A DNA stretch of 60,407 nucleotides from Bacteriovorax sp. Seq25_V. GTDB taxonomy: Bacteria; Bdellovibrionota; Bacteriovoracia; Bacteriovoracales; Bacteriovoracaceae. Positions 6,296 to 56,294 of the stretch are shown one piece after another. Each line of letters starts with the position of its first letter. Positions within the stretch are counted from its first letter, which is position 1. The DNA lies in NCBI RefSeq assembly GCF_000447795.1, contig NZ_AUNI01000003.1:1-60407 (forward strand). The letters are read 5' to 3'. The position numbers and the translations under genes are program-made. The notes beneath the pieces are model-generated. The model was not told where the DNA came from. It made no database searches and saw nothing but the letters and a program-made list of their open reading frames with translations.

Positions 6296-7195
6296 ATGAT
6301 TGAAACCAGTCAACTGCATACGCTTGTGGCCGTGGCCAGAGCGCAAAGTTTTTCAAAGGCAGCTGAAGAGCTTGGGGTTACCCAATCTGCTATTTCTCAG
6401 TCTGTGAAAAATCTCGAAAACAAGTTAGAAGTAAAACTTTTTAAAAGATCTGGCAAGAAGGTTGTTCTTACTGGTGAAGGCGAGAAGCTATTTACTCTTG
6501 CTTCAAACTTCTTATCGCATCTTGATGAGGCCCTTGTTGATATTCAAAATGCCAAGAATACGATGAGTGGAACAGTTCGCATTGGAACACTTATTGGTGT
6601 TGGAAAATCTTGGCTCGCACCAGAACTTCTAAGTTTTGCGAAAGAGTACCCTGAGCTATCTGTATCAATAAGTCTCGGCTTTCATGAAGAGCTGATTCGC
6701 GAGTTTGAAAACTATCGTCTTGATTTCCTTATTCTTCCTGAAGGAGCACTACCAACAGTTGGAGAGAAGAAACTTTTAAGTGAAGAAACGGTAACTCTTG
6801 TATATCCAAAAGGTAACCCGTTTGGGATCACTAAGGATATGACGATTGATGATCTTGCAAAAATTCCTACCGTGCTTTTTGAAAGGGAAGATCAATTATT
6901 TCAAAATTGGTGTCGTGCTAAATTTGGGAAACTTCCAAAGTCTAAGAATGTAAAATATACGATTAATTCACATGGAAATATGCTCCAGGCCGTTAGAGAA
7001 GGGCTTGGTATTGCTGTTGTTCCAAATCATGTTTTGAAAAGATCTTTTTATAAAGAACAAGTTGAAACTCTTGGTAACTTTTTTGATGTTGATCATGGAA
7101 AGTTCTATCTTGTATATCATAAAGATGCGACTGAGCTAGTACGTATCAAAAAGACGCTTGAGAGATTAACGTCGGAGAAGAACCCATTTCTATAA
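6296..7195 (+). CDS. LysR-family transcriptional regulator
   Basis: The protein has 299 residues, normal for the family. The N-terminal winged helix (about 1-60) carries the typical S-F-S-K-A-A-E-E-L-G-V-T-Q-S-A-I-S-Q-S and L-E-x-x-L segments. The rest is the periplasmic-binding-protein-like effector domain. LysR proteins usually regulate a neighbouring gene, often divergent, in response to a small ligand; here the upstream neighbour is the receiver protein on the same strand, so the target is not evident. Its last ten bases overlap the proposed start of the nucleotidyltransferase gene. Confidence 0.93.
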   Translation: MIETSQLHTLVAVARAQSFSKAAEELGVTQSAISQSVKNLENKLEVKLFKRSGKKVVLTGEGEKLFTLASNFLSHLDEALVDIQNAKNTMSGTVRIGTLIGVGKSWLAPELLSFAKEYPELSVSISLGFHEELIREFENYRLDFLILPEGALPTVGEKKLLSEETVTLVYPKGNPFGITKDMTIDDLAKIPTVLFEREDQLFQNWCRAKFGKLPKSKNVKYTINSHGNMLQAVREGLGIAVVPNHVLKRSFYKEQVETLGNFFDVDHGKFYLVYHKDATELVRIKKTLERLTSEKNPFL

Positions 7196-50827: not shown

Positions 50828-52585
50828 ATGAGAAATATGATTTTAGTGGCATTGATCGCCCTTAATGTTTTTGCAATTGATAAAGATAGTTTTTCTGGAA
50901 CGAAGTTCTGGTATATGGATAAAGCTGATAGAGTCGAGATTGTAACAGATCTTTATAAGCAAACAAAAGCTGAGTATGCGCTTTGGGATTTTAAAAAGAA
51001 GAGAATCGGTGTTGATGGAGATAAATTATTTCAAGATGCACTTGCTGTAGAAAATGCAATTTCTGATGTTGAAGGGCCAATTTTAGAAGCTCGTGCAAAT
51101 CTTGATTTCATTGATAGAGTTAAAAAAATTATTGCTACTTTCCAAGATACACATTTTGGAATTTCAACTAAAGTCTCTATGCCGTGGATTGTCTCAGGTC
51201 TAGGAACAAAACTAATTGATGATAAAGTATTTATTACTGAAATCTATCAAAAAGTAATAACTAAGAGTGCTGCGTCTTCTGATAATGGAGATGAACTTCT
51301 AGCTATTAAATTAGGTGATGAAGTTCTTGCCGTTGATGGAGTATCTGTTTCAGAAAAAATCAATGAGCTTGTTCCTTATCTTGATGCTTCTTCTGTAGCA
51401 TTTGCAAGAGAATCGGCAGGAAGATTTCTACTAGAGAGATATTTCAAAATCCCTTCTAAACCATTTTTTGATGTAAAAATTAAATCAGGGGAGAAAGAAA
51501 AGGTCGTAAGAGTTCCACTACATTTTTCTGATAATACGCAAGATAGAGTAAGAAGAAGAGATGCAATGTTTTACATGACAAAGCTTGGATTTATTCCTTT
51601 AGCTCAAATCCGTACAACTTATGATCAAAGTAAGCATGAGTGGATTGATTCTCGTGATCTTGATTCAAAATCCCTTGTTAAAGAAATGCCTAAAGGTGCA
51701 ATTGAATTAAATAATTGGACTTCAGCAAAGAATGGCGGATCTTCAATTGTAAGAAGTGGTTTAATACTAGATGCAGGAAAAGTAACAGCTTATATGCAAG
51801 TTAATTCATTCTCTGTTTCAACTGTGTATAAAGGAAGCGAGACGACTGACTTTATTTCTGCAATTAGAAACGAAGTGAAGTACTTCAAGGCCCAAAACCT
51901 TAACCTTATTCTCGATATTAGAAGTAATGGAGGGGGGCGAAGCACATACCCTGGACAGGTTCTATCTCTACTAACGGAAGAAGGAAAAACTTATAATGGG
52001 ACAATCAGTGCAAGAAGAATTACTCGTTACATGAGACAACTGTTTGACTATTACAGTTCGGATGAAATTTTCTCTCAAGTTGCAGATGGTGTGAACTGGC
52101 AAACGACTGTTAATGAAGTTGAAGATTCAATTTCTGATAGAAGAGAGTATACTCGTGCAATTTATGATGGTGATATTACTGCTGACGAAGAAGTTGGCGG
52201 ATATAATGGAAAGATTGTTGCCCTTATTTCTCCAAGTTGTATTTCTGCATGTGATAAAATGAGTATGCTTTTAAAAACATCAAAAAGAGCAACGCTTGTA
52301 GGTATCTCTGCAAATGGTACAGGGGCCGGGTATTCATCAAACGATAAACTTAATACTCAGTTTACTGATCGTTTCAATGTATTCTCAACTCAAATTCCAA
52401 ATTATCTATTTGGTTACCCTCCAGCGACTGGGGTTAGTACAACAGATTTTTCTCTTGAGTCTGGATATGAGCTAAATTCTGAAAACGTAGAGGTAAAGGC
52501 CGATGTAATTTATGAAGAATCACTCGATGCTGACTATATAAATTACTCAAAGGGATGGATTGAAAAAGCTCTTTCTCTATTCTAA
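50828..52585 (+). CDS. Exported S41-family (C-terminal processing) protease
   Basis: The protein has 585 residues, with AAGGAG before ATG 50828 and a short signal peptide (about 1-16). Residues about 110-230 contain a PDZ-like region (L-G-D-E-V-L-A-V-D-G-V). The S41 core has D-I-R-S-N-G-G-G (363-370) and S-P-S-C-I-S473-A-C-D, where Ser473 is the expected nucleophile. Tail-specific S41 proteases degrade or mature periplasmic proteins. A terminator follows directly. Confidence 0.9.
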   Translation: MRNMILVALIALNVFAIDKDSFSGTKFWYMDKADRVEIVTDLYKQTKAEYALWDFKKKRIGVDGDKLFQDALAVENAISDVEGPILEARANLDFIDRVKKIIATFQDTHFGISTKVSMPWIVSGLGTKLIDDKVFITEIYQKVITKSAASSDNGDELLAIKLGDEVLAVDGVSVSEKINELVPYLDASSVAFARESAGRFLLERYFKIPSKPFFDVKIKSGEKEKVVRVPLHFSDNTQDRVRRRDAMFYMTKLGFIPLAQIRTTYDQSKHEWIDSRDLDSKSLVKEMPKGAIELNNWTSAKNGGSSIVRSGLILDAGKVTAYMQVNSFSVSTVYKGSETTDFISAIRNEVKYFKAQNLNLILDIRSNGGGRSTYPGQVLSLLTEEGKTYNGTISARRITRYMRQLFDYYSSDEIFSQVADGVNWQTTVNEVEDSISDRREYTRAIYDGDITADEEVGGYNGKIVALISPSCISACDKMSMLLKTSKRATLVGISANGTGAGYSSNDKLNTQFTDRFNVFSTQIPNYLFGYPPATGVSTTDFSLESGYELNSENVEVKADVIYEESLDADYINYSKGWIEKALSLF

Positions 52586-52590
52586 ATAAA

Positions 52591-52617
52591 AAAGCCGCTT
52601 TTATTAGCGGCTTTTTT
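52591..52617 (+). terminator. Intrinsic terminator of the S41 protease gene
   Basis: AAAGCCGCT (52591-52599) pairs with AGCGGCTTT (52606-52614) around a TTTATT loop and runs into T residues. It isolates the downstream non-coding region from the protease transcript. Confidence 0.9.
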
Positions 52618-52734
52618 GTCTCTGCCATAAAAGCTCGTCAATAATTCTACTGAATTCGTAAACCCTAAGATTCATACATCCCCTTAAGAGCTTAAAATCT
52701 AATTGAATTTAATTTTTTTCATTTTTTTCTTATC

Positions 52735-53202
52735 CACAAGTACAGAGTTGTTTTAATCTGTTTTTAGAAAACCCGTGGAAAGGGCGAGGATTATTCGAAA
52801 GATTTTCCGAGCAAAGCTCTTGTGCTTCAGAATGATTTCTATGCATTAAGAGTTGCCGAAACGGTGCGGAGTCCCTCACTTGTCTGGACTTGAAACTTAG
52901 TCTGGTACAATCGATCGGGTCATTTAGGCGTGGAGAGCGCTTGGGTGAAGTGGGGTGTATGATTCGCGTAGGGAGGAATTTTGGGACCATAGCGTCTCTC
53001 AATACTTTTACTTTTTAGACATTCACGTATTTGCTTACCAGGGATTAATCCGGCCAGTTTTTGACTACTAGAAGGGGGTAATATTCTTTTTAGGTCGAGT
53101 GGTGGTGAGTGAAATGGGGCAAATCATCAGACCCCTAATCTATTGTACTTACAAGCACAAACCTTCATAGGGCCACCGACTAATGTACGTGGCCCTTTTT
53201 TA
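52735..53202 (+). ncRNA. Unassigned long structured RNA upstream of rlmN
   Basis: No credible protein is encoded between 52586 and 53231 (646 bp). The stretch 52770-53060 is visibly richer in G and C than its surroundings. Complementary ends (AAGTACA 52738-52744 with TGTACTT 53144-53150) could form a closing stem. Inside, GAGTCC/GGACTT (52869-52891), GAGAG-CGCT with AGCG-TCTCTC (52933-53000) and GAGC/GCTC (52809-52819) form further helices. An intrinsic terminator ends it at 53202. I looked for RNase P (GAGGAAAGTCC), tmRNA (T-loop, tag codons), SRP domain IV and GEMM riboswitch signatures and found none. It is either a stand-alone RNA or a very long rlmN leader. The promoter is not evident. 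Confidence 0.6.
53170..53202 (+). terminator. Intrinsic terminator between the RNA and rlmN
   Basis: GGGCCAC (53170-53176) pairs with GTGGCCC (53189-53195) around a 12-base loop, followed by seven T. It lies 29 bases before the rlmN ATG. Confidence 0.88.
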
Positions 53203-53231
53203 TTTGTGCTTTATCAGCTATAGTCCGGCAA

Positions 53232-54263
53232 ATGAAAACATCTTTCTACGACCTTTCTTATCAAGACCTATTTGATATCCTTGAATCAAGGGGATTAAAC
53301 ACGTCTGCGGCCAGTCTACTTTTTAACTGGCACTATAAGAAAAGAGAACATTCCCCGTGCACAGAAAATGTTTCAAAAGATAATATTAAATTTATTGCTG
53401 AAAACTTTGACTTTTCTCTACCTAAAATTTCAAAAGTATTTGAGGCCCAAGACCGTACAGTTAAATTTCTTTTCGAACTGAGTGACGGAAATCGTGTTGA
53501 AACAGTCCTGATTCCTTTTAATAATAAGTACTCTATTTGTCTCTCGTCTCAAGTGGGATGTGCAATGAACTGTGCTTTTTGTTATACTGGAACGCAAGGC
53601 CTTACTCGAAATTTAAAAACTTCAGAGATCGTTGGACAATTTCTTATGGCCTACCATTGGCTTAGGGAAAATCGCCCTGATGAACAAAGAGTTTTAAATA
53701 TCGTTTTTATGGGACAAGGTGAGCCTCTTCATAATTTTGATCCAGTAAAAAAAGCCTGTGAGATTTTTCTAAGTTCTCACGGAACCTCTCTTGGTCATCA
53801 AAAAATCTCAATTTCGACTTCTGGGTACATCCCTGGACTAAAGAGATGGGCTGAGGAAATTCCTGGCGTAAACCTTGCTCTATCTCTGCATTCACCTTTT
53901 GCGGCGATTAGGAATGAGCTCATTCCAATCAATAAGAAATTTCCTTTAGAAGAAGTTCTCTCATATATTGATACGGTTCCTCTTCGTAAAAAGCAGTTTG
54001 TCACTTACGAGTATCTGGTTATTAAGGATTTTAATGACTCTGCTGAAGATGCCCATGCAACGGCTAAACTTTTAAAAGACAAACGTGCTTTTGTTAATCT
54101 TATTCCATTTAATCCATTTCCTGGCACTGACTATAAGCGACCAGAGCTTGAAGTTGTTATGAACTTTAAGGCAGTTCTTGATACTTATAAAATTCCAACT
54201 CTCGTGCGAGGAACGAAGGGCGATGACGTTCTCGCTGCCTGTGGACAACTAAACTCTAAGTAA
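53232..54263 (+). CDS. rlmN: 23S rRNA/tRNA adenine-C2 methyltransferase RlmN (radical SAM)
   Basis: The protein has 343 residues. It methylates C2 of A2503 in 23S rRNA and A37 of some tRNAs by radical SAM chemistry. The iron-sulfur motif is C110-x-x-x-C114-x-x-C117, M-G-Q-G-E-P-L binds SAM, and C-terminal Cys337 (A-A-C-G-Q-L) is the methyl-carrying residue. There is no ribosome site before ATG 53232. Instead TATAGT (53219-53224) ends seven bases before the A of ATG, so transcription could start at the start codon and give a leaderless mRNA; otherwise the gene depends on read-through of the terminator upstream. Confidence 0.94.
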   Translation: MKTSFYDLSYQDLFDILESRGLNTSAASLLFNWHYKKREHSPCTENVSKDNIKFIAENFDFSLPKISKVFEAQDRTVKFLFELSDGNRVETVLIPFNNKYSICLSSQVGCAMNCAFCYTGTQGLTRNLKTSEIVGQFLMAYHWLRENRPDEQRVLNIVFMGQGEPLHNFDPVKKACEIFLSSHGTSLGHQKISISTSGYIPGLKRWAEEIPGVNLALSLHSPFAAIRNELIPINKKFPLEEVLSYIDTVPLRKKQFVTYEYLVIKDFNDSAEDAHATAKLLKDKRAFVNLIPFNPFPGTDYKRPELEVVMNFKAVLDTYKIPTLVRGTKGDDVLAACGQLNSK

Positions 54264-54417
54264 AATTCCCTCTTTGGTTTTGATCGAAGAATAGTCAAAT
54301 TAATCGAGATCTTTTTTTGTATATTATTTAGACAGGGTTGTTTTATTTACATCTTGTTCAGTAGTCAGTCAGGAATTATGTCATTATAAAAATAATTAAT
54401 AGATGAGTGAGGTCATA

Positions 54418-55080
54418 ATGAAAAAATTAATTATTGGTGCTGTTTTATTATCTAGTTCTATGTCTGCGGCAGCTACTGACTTTTCTTTTGATAGAAAGTA
54501 CAGTCTTAAACTTCCTGTTAATTCAGAAAGAATCGGAGCGATTGTAGAATTAAAAGACTATTTTGAACTTAACCCAAAGCTTTCTGGTGTTGCTGTAAAG
54601 ATAAATAATTTATCATTTCAATATAAAGGTTTTAGTAAATCAGATGTTAAATCAAAAATATGTGTACAGGTTGGAAAACTTGAGTTCTTTAAGGAGAGGT
54701 TCGATATTCTCAAAGGACGAGTTTTGTCAGATGCTGTGCCTCGTTTATTAAACAAAGAACAGTCGAGACTAAGTGAACAATTTTCAATTCTAAATACAGG
54801 TTTGAGTAATACATTAAGTGACCTCACAAGTTTTTGTGAAGGTGACTTAAATTTGGATGGAAAAGGGATCAGAGATTCCCTAAACGGTTTATCTTCTCTT
54901 ATTCATGATACAGCATTTAATGTAAACTGGGCATTGGAAAGAGATAGTATCCTTGTGCCACAAGCAAGTGATACTTTTATCGAATATTCTAGAGCAAAAC
55001 ACATTTATGATAACACAGTGGAAACTGAGGAAGATGGTGATACAGGGAAAAAAGAATGCAGGTTTCGTGATCTTTTTTAA
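54418..55080 (+). CDS. Hypothetical exported protein
   Basis: From ATG 54418 (GAGG five bases upstream) the protein has 220 residues with a signal peptide cleaved near M-S-A-A-A (19). The mature part is mixed, with three Cys (K-I-C-V-Q, S-F-C-E-G, K-E-C-R-F). No family recognised. It is a single-gene unit with a strong terminator; the 154-bp gap upstream presumably holds its promoter. Confidence 0.78.
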   Translation: MKKLIIGAVLLSSSMSAAATDFSFDRKYSLKLPVNSERIGAIVELKDYFELNPKLSGVAVKINNLSFQYKGFSKSDVKSKICVQVGKLEFFKERFDILKGRVLSDAVPRLLNKEQSRLSEQFSILNTGLSNTLSDLTSFCEGDLNLDGKGIRDSLNGLSSLIHDTAFNVNWALERDSILVPQASDTFIEYSRAKHIYDNTVETEEDGDTGKKECRFRDLF

Positions 55081-55111
55081 AAAATACTCAACTAAAGTAA
55101 TATAACCATAC

Positions 55112-55143
55112 AAAAGGCAGAGAATATTTCCTCTGCCTTTTTG
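55112..55143 (+). terminator. Intrinsic terminator
   Basis: AAAAGGCAGAG (55112-55122) pairs with CTCTGCCTTTTT (from 55131) around an eight-base loop; the pairing runs into the T-run. Confidence 0.9.
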
Positions 55144-55308
55144 TTTTACTCCATCTTTTCTAGTCAGCCATTTTTGGCCATCAGTCTTCTCAGTTGTATT
55201 GATTATTATATTGTTCATTTTTTTTACACCATTTGTAGATTTTTCAAGTATCAACAAATTTGACTTTATTTCGCTAAAATATACTTATTAGTTAATTTTG
55301 AGGTTTCT

Positions 55309-55905
55309 ATGAATATAAAAAAATCACTAGTTTTGCTTACTATTATTTCTACTTTTTCTCTTCCTAGTAACGCAGGAGCGGGAACTATTTTAAAGGCACT
55401 TGCTAAGCCATTTGAAAAAGTAGGAAGTATGGTGAATGGAAAGGCCCTTCCTAGTAAGGCGAAGCTTGTCGATCAGTACCTATCCCTTAGTGATGTTAAG
55501 CGCTCTCGCCTTGATGAAGTGAATATCCAGGCCCTATCTTCAGGTGGCTCAGGCGCTGTTTTACATAATACGGAATCAAAACTTGTTGAACTTGAATTTC
55601 GTGCCATGGATCTCGTCGAAACTTTTGATGATCTTGTTGGTAATTCTAATGCCTCATCTGGACTTAAGGCCTTATTTACTTCACAGGTTAAAGATTTAAG
55701 TTTCTTACTTGCTCACATGCATGTGGTTGTCTCTAAGAATAAGGTTTATCCCCATGTCGATAAAATTCTCGATATTATAACGGATCTTGATAAGAGCCTT
55801 AGTGGTGCTTATATCACAAACCCAAGCTACGCAACAAAATCAGCTTTAAATGATTTTCTAAAAATACGTAAGAAGGTTTATTCTGACTTAGTTGATCTTA
55901 AATAG
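55309..55905 (+). CDS. Hypothetical exported protein, paralogue of the gene at 4644
   Basis: The protein has 198 residues with a signal peptide (M-N-I-K-K, hydrophobic run, cleavage near S-N-A-G). It aligns with the 4644-5234 protein over its whole length (A-K-P-F-x-K-V-G, then D-Q-Y-L-S-L-S-D-V-K-R-S-R-L-D-E-V, then V-K-D-L-S-F-L-L-A). Both are helical, of nearly the same size, and have no Cys in the mature part. Unknown family. Unlike its paralogue it has no coupled small Cys protein. Confidence 0.82.
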   Translation: MNIKKSLVLLTIISTFSLPSNAGAGTILKALAKPFEKVGSMVNGKALPSKAKLVDQYLSLSDVKRSRLDEVNIQALSSGGSGAVLHNTESKLVELEFRAMDLVETFDDLVGNSNASSGLKALFTSQVKDLSFLLAHMHVVVSKNKVYPHVDKILDIITDLDKSLSGAYITNPSYATKSALNDFLKIRKKVYSDLVDLK

Positions 55906-55940
55906 TTTCTTTTTTTTCTATCGCAATTATAATAACTCTT

Positions 55941-56294
55941 ATGAAACTTGTGATTAGAAACGAATTTAATAAAGAAGTAACTCAAGCTAAGTCCCTTATT
56001 CGCAAAGGGGATTTTGAGCTTGCTTTTGTCCATCTCGAACGCGCTCATGTGATCGGCCAGCTCTACGTCATCCCACACACCATATCTCATTACTACATGC
56101 TAGTAGTTGGCATCAAAAAGAGAAGCTTCAAAGAGATCTTTGGTCAACTAATTCGTCTACCTCTAGGTGTTTTAGGTTCTGCTGTCGGAATCGTCCCAAC
56201 TGGTAATACTGGAGGGAGTAATATCTCTGCATTTAAGAAACTTCCAATCCCGTCAGATATCCAAGAAATATTGAATTCAGATGCCTCAAAATAG
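55941..56294 (+). CDS. DUF3703 family protein
   Basis: The protein has 117 residues. H-L-E-R-A-H-V-I-G-Q near 33-42, H-x-x-x-H-Y-Y-M-L-V-V-G, K-E-I-F-G-Q-L-I-R, and V-P-T-G-N-T-G-G-S-N followed by P-I-P-S-D-I match the DUF3703 pattern. The three conserved His could bind a metal. Function unknown. It lies between the exported protein and pheS on the same strand. Confidence 0.88.
   Translation: MKLVIRNEFNKEVTQAKSLIRKGDFELAFVHLERAHVIGQLYVIPHTISHYYMLVVGIKKRSFKEIFGQLIRLPLGVLGSAVGIVPTGNTGGSNISAFKKLPIPSDIQEILNSDASK

Follow-up and report, generated by a model that had tools for sequence, protein, structure and literature searches.

A conserved RNA with a c-di-GMP-I aptamer and a putative three-codon mini-ORF in Bacteriovorax and its relatives

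Genomic locus and distribution

The window, i.e., the whole 60,407-nt stretch of DNA analysed here, contains a gap of 646 bp (52586-53231) that separates an S41-peptidase-type ORF from rlmN. As described in an earlier note on this DNA, the gap holds no credible long ORF and has a higher GC content than the DNA around it (43.8% for 52735-53202 versus 36.9% for the window). The two terminators proposed there can be read by eye as hairpins with T-runs, one behind the S41-peptidase-type ORF (approximately 52587-52617) and one, GGGCCAC...GTGGCCC TTTTTT, at the 3' end of the gap RNA (53170-53201), while a consensus scan listed neither. Comparison across relatives confirms a conserved, structured RNA in the gap. 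Delimited by conservation in relatives and by the terminator, it spans 52770-53201 (about 430 nt), and its 5' end may lie some tens of nucleotides upstream; this RNA and all features described below are on the forward strand. Folding energy alone is uninformative, as the single sequence folds no better than shuffles (z = -1.28), so that the structure is shown by comparison only. RNase P, 6S RNA, and tmRNA were rejected as identities of the gap RNA because all three sit elsewhere in the same genome; signature strings of RNase P and tmRNA had not been found in the earlier note either.

Of 100 genomes in the family, which comprises Bacteriovorax and relatives, 39 carry the RNA by the aptamer model described below, with one copy each except for one genome with two, whose contamination estimate is 9%. 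Nearly all loci with the RNA place it between hldE/orf176 and pheS: the relatives' copies follow hldE, often with the 176-codon ORF in between, and usually precede pheS. Where the RNA is absent, hldE/orf176 and pheS are usually simply adjacent. In the window, the S41-peptidase-type ORF lies upstream of the RNA, and rlmN and three ORFs lie downstream. This set of ORFs is found between orf176 and pheS in this genome only (50828-56291); in the relatives, orf176 and pheS are adjacent or separated by the RNA only.

The gene order, the adjacency of rlmN limited to the window genome among the hldE loci examined, and one copy (L116) on the strand opposite to its neighbours argue that the RNA is not a leader of rlmN. 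The earlier suggestion of an attenuator leader for this gene is thus rejected, also in view of the RNA's own terminator. A terminator closes most copies, at 290-530 nt from the start of the aptamer. In the window and in L106, pheS does not directly follow the RNA, and it was not found in the loci of L104 and L112. Judged from sequence and gene order, the RNA is very likely a stand-alone one, as the earlier note had also proposed, and it is predicted to be transcribed. No conserved promoter was found.

A c-di-GMP-I aptamer at the 5' end

The 5' domain (52770-52868) is a c-di-GMP-I (GEMM-I) aptamer, identified by Rfam matches in orthologues, RNAalifold, and covariation. A DNA search of 58 relatives matched a block of about 100 nt, starting at AACCCGTGGAAAGGG, in several genomes, and in cmscan of the relatives' copies the c-di-GMP-I models match exactly this block (23.9 bits in L004, 26.2 bits in L007). 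A survey with RF01051 added three family members at the same locus, with G011 (36.5 bits) above the gathering score of 35 bits and G026 (33.9 bits) and G033 (33.7 bits) just below. The window aptamer does not reach this score in the Rfam scan, and weaker Rfam searches of the window alone returned chance matches only. The Rfam scan proposed in the earlier note thus yields nothing for the window at the gathering score, while the orthologous copy in G011 exceeds this score. The claim of an orphan outside any known class does not hold for the 5' domain, nor does the reported lack of a GEMM signature, since the GAAA tetraloop, GCAAAGC, and GUUGCCGA are all present in the window.

Run unprompted on ten copies, RNAalifold returned the GEMM-I architecture, with 14 pairs kept through double changes. 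A covariance model built from these aligned copies (R1) matched 38 copies among the fetched loci (E 1e-26 to 1e-11), a few of these loci being the same genome fetched twice. In a 39-row alignment, 91% of the aptamer pairs hold, and double-changed cells number 193 compared with 54 in shuffles; sliding the partner strands abolishes this signal. RNAalifold and covariation agree on a three-helix fold of P1 (52773-52776/52861-52864), the P2 hairpin with its GAAA loop (52797-52800), and P3 (approximately 52814-52854). The P2 tetraloop is GAAA in nearly all copies and GAGA in L007 and L078. Its receptor in P3 reads CUAAG..UAUG in most copies and is weaker in the window (CUUCAG..CUAUG).

The ligand-contact bases are kept in every copy. 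They comprise the equivalents of G20 (52783), in contact with one guanine of c-di-GMP, of A47 (52813; A3 alignment), which stacks between the guanines, and of C92 (52856), in contact with the other guanine. The numbering is that of the Vc2 aptamer, and the G/A/C set is the canonical c-di-GMP set rather than that of the GGC variant. Altogether, the gap RNA is almost certainly a conserved c-di-GMP-I aptamer RNA; its identity as such is secure, and it is predicted to bind c-di-GMP, which two GGDEF proteins of the same genome could supply. The Rfam c-di-GMP-I model hence misses a branch of its class.

Downstream domain and mini-ORF

The second domain (52866-52969) is organized around P4 (approximately 52866-52873/52961-52969), which directly abuts the aptamer after P1 and whose 3' strand runs right up to a Shine-Dalgarno (SD) sequence. 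P4 encloses P5 (52874-52881/52948-52955), the variable hairpin P6 (52884-52905), the nearly invariant CGGGUC (52916-52921), and hairpin P7 (52922-52929/52939-52946), whose loop GUGGYGAGC reads GUGGAGAGC in the window (52930-52938). As MAFFT mis-registers the helices of this domain, we set the pairing within each sequence against that of strands taken from different sequences. Over 21 dissimilar representatives, the observed mean was not reached in any of 5000 permutations for P4, P5, or P7. The pair counts agree, with 190 double changes versus 65 in shuffles. Since the copies share ancestry and counting on a model-fitted alignment favours the model, the permutation test on representatives and a MAFFT-only count are the less biased figures. 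A second model built from the downstream domain alone (R2) finds matches beside R1 in most R1-bearing genomes. No known relatives of the downstream domain were found.

Covariation thus backs P4, P5, and P7 instead of the helices read earlier at 52869-52891 and 52933-53000, which are single-sequence pairings. The "complementary ends" of that reading (52738-52744/53144-53150) fall in part beyond the conserved RNA, whose start is near 52770; in relatives, the 3' strand (CUACUUACWAGCA) is present but its 5' partner is missing, so that the pairing looks like chance. A pairing of CGGGUC with GACC of the mini-ORF, seen by eye only, was likewise rejected, as CGGGUC stays where GACC is changed (L095, L101, and L065).

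The SD sequence GGGAGG (52971-52976) is followed by a mini-ORF, TTG GGA CCA TAG (fMet-Gly-Pro-stop; 52981-52992). A start codon, two codons, and a stop directly follow the SD in 26 of 31 copies, compared with 0.9 expected and a maximum of five in 2000 shuffles; in the remaining five, the mini-ORF is absent or altered. Codon 2 encodes Gly (GGA, GGG, GGT, or GGC) or Asp (GAT or GAC) in all 26, codon 3 mostly Pro (CCA, CCG, or CCT) and in a few copies Ile, Asn, or Lys. The start is TTG, a weak start codon, or ATG, and the stop TAA or TAG, with Met-Gly/Asp-Pro-stop in most relatives. This codon pattern suggests a translated frame, and the SD/mini-ORF is probably translated. Moreover, 29 RNAs contain 54 occurrences of GGAGG downstream of the aptamer versus eight expected, and 20 of the 29 carry a second GGAGG (1.05 expected), in whose stead the window has GGGGG. 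In thermodynamic folding of 28 copies, the aptamer did not consistently change how accessible the SD is (mean unpaired 0.37 versus 0.41). Gating of the SD by c-di-GMP through simple alternative pairing was rejected, as the effect is inconsistent across these copies.

The alignment of relatives further reveals the GACATTCAC motif in the 3' part (53018-53026) and, conserved in close relatives, the GTACTTACAAGCAC motif near the 3' end (53145-53158). The former, GACATTCAY across the window and relatives, is conserved 3' of the mini-ORF and has no obvious pairing partner.

Two relatives keep a segment of about 350-430 nt at the same locus (L124, Bacteriovorax sp. BSW11_IV, 6500-7000; L094, 6560-6990) in which no aptamer match was obtained even with filters off. 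L094 is matched by R2 and keeps the SD with TTG GGC CCG TAG as well as GGACATTCA, and L124 keeps AAGGAGG, GACATTTAC, CTACTTAAAAGCATGAGAT, and the terminator. SD, ACATT motif, and terminator are retained in both and the mini-ORF in L094 only, being unrecognizable in L124. Since these copies keep the downstream parts, the core of the RNA seems to lie downstream, with the aptamer as an input that can be removed.

Possible function and comparison with merRNA

On balance, we regard a stand-alone, c-di-GMP-responsive RNA that engages ribosomes via the SD/mini-ORF and acts in trans as the best explanation, its mechanism being inferred. A terminator-ended RNA of about 430 nt would present, in its body, the SD and three-codon ORF at the foot of the covarying P4. 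Binding of c-di-GMP to the 5' aptamer would alter the RNA's shape, lifetime, or ribosome engagement, ribosomes would use the SD/mini-ORF, and the RNA would act in trans, e.g., by taking up ribosomes or capacity for initiation, instead of on a neighbouring gene. That c-di-GMP-gated ribosome engagement is the function is possible, though doubtful. A specific form of it, in which c-di-GMP controls ribosome capture, ribosomes and tRNA are tied up or dropped upon initiation at Met-Gly/Asp-Pro-stop, and translation slows in one life-cycle phase, is speculative and rather unlikely; if it were true, Bdellovibrio merRNA, with its ORF of 12-16 codons, would represent a parallel solution.

According to Karunker et al (PMC3627812), merRNA of the predator Bdellovibrio bacteriovorus HD100 (1,073,741-1,074,185, minus strand; 445 nt) carries a c-di-GMP riboswitch and is massively expressed in attack phase, being among the most abundant RNAs there; conservation outside Bdellovibrio was not found, and a role as c-di-GMP reservoir was put forward as a proposal. 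The sole c-di-GMP-I match of G102 (1,073,868-1,073,951, minus strand) falls inside these coordinates, and G102 was therefore taken as HD100. One c-di-GMP-I aptamer each is present in 50 of 53 genomes of its (Bdellovibrio) family. In the region 5' of the aptamer, 17 of 20 genomes (L181-L196 and L200, Bdellovibrionaceae) contain an SD and a conserved ORF of 12-16 codons, e.g., MKHRIHDHHDEAPK followed by a stop, or MRTHEHHDDELK followed by a stop in HD100 (L181). Among 13 of the 17, 45% of codon changes are synonymous versus 17% expected, which none of 300 column shuffles reached. The parts of Karunker et al (PMC3627812) considered here do not mention this micro-ORF. Similar GCTATTCT/GCGCTATTCTC strings lie upstream of merRNA and of the L053-L057 copies of the present RNA and perhaps reflect a shared promoter type.

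A reservoir of this kind, i.e., an RNA that is abundant solely to hold and release c-di-GMP, is an unlikely account of the present RNA. An aptamer of this class in an RNA that, like merRNA, is stand-alone and of similar length, the single aptamer in all but one of the matching genomes, and the model proposed by Karunker et al (PMC3627812) speak for it, but the conserved covarying second domain and the SD/mini-ORF would then be unneeded, and two relatives lost the aptamer while keeping other parts of the RNA. Still less probable is a sponge for CsrA/RsmA, whose repeated GGA/GGAGG motifs would bind the protein with their exposure set by c-di-GMP. Such a sponge would fit the enrichment of GGAGG (54 versus eight), and CsrA is encoded in the same genome and matched in 49 of 58 genomes; however, it leaves unexplained why a start-x-x-stop with conserved amino acids follows GGAGG at fixed spacing, and CsrA also occurs where the RNA is absent (e.g., G003 and G007).

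The location of pheS downstream of most copies might suggest that the RNA is a leader or attenuator acting in cis on the following gene (pheS in most relatives, rlmN in the window). We consider this highly improbable, given the terminator that closes the RNA, the opposite strand of L116, the displaced or missing pheS in the four loci named above, the usual adjacency of hldE/orf176 and pheS where the RNA is absent, and the restriction of the rlmN neighbour to the window. Even more remote is a new RNA class unrelated to known ones, as first proposed: the window has no Rfam match at the gathering score, but the c-di-GMP-I models are matched by orthologues, with agreement in both fold and ligand bases, which refutes this reading for the 5' domain.

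Returning to the favoured c-di-GMP-responsive RNA that would engage ribosomes, its aptamer shares the fold, the GAAA tetraloop, and the G/A/C contact bases with RF01051, whereas the window sequence is too divergent for the gathering score and does not precede a regulated gene. The GGC variant RF03167 is the best model for L007 (26.2 bits; gathering score 59) but has G at the A47 position, where all copies here have A. In other families of the phylum, c-di-GMP-I aptamers (L039, L155, L160, and L161) lie within a long-range CCCCCUUU/AAAGGGGGGUCC element immediately 5' of a putative queE-like radical-SAM gene. The mini-ORF with its SD resembles other start-few codons-stop ORFs such as the bar minigenes of phage lambda, in which an SD likewise precedes a few codons; in contrast to these, the present mini-ORF is part of a long, structured, aptamer-bearing RNA.

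The closest analogue is merRNA, likewise a stand-alone RNA (about 445 nt) with a single c-di-GMP-I aptamer, its own terminator, and no cis-controlled gene, in which our analysis also identified an SD with a conserved short ORF and a second GGAGG. The two differ in the place of the aptamer (3' half in merRNA, 5' end here), in the short ORF (12-16 residues versus three codons), and in their genomic neighbours. As nhmmer searches in both directions did not detect homology outside the aptamer, we call the present RNA merRNA-like in architecture rather than a merRNA; by this analogy, the likeness is one of a probably stand-alone RNA combining a c-di-GMP aptamer with a conserved short ORF. With a second family of parallel architecture among Bacteriovorax relatives, merRNA changes from an isolated case into a comparative problem. 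Both RNAs conserve an SD with a short ORF, and some relatives of the present one lost the aptamer but not other parts, which argues for a function beyond the holding of c-di-GMP and singles out ribosomes as a partner open to testing.
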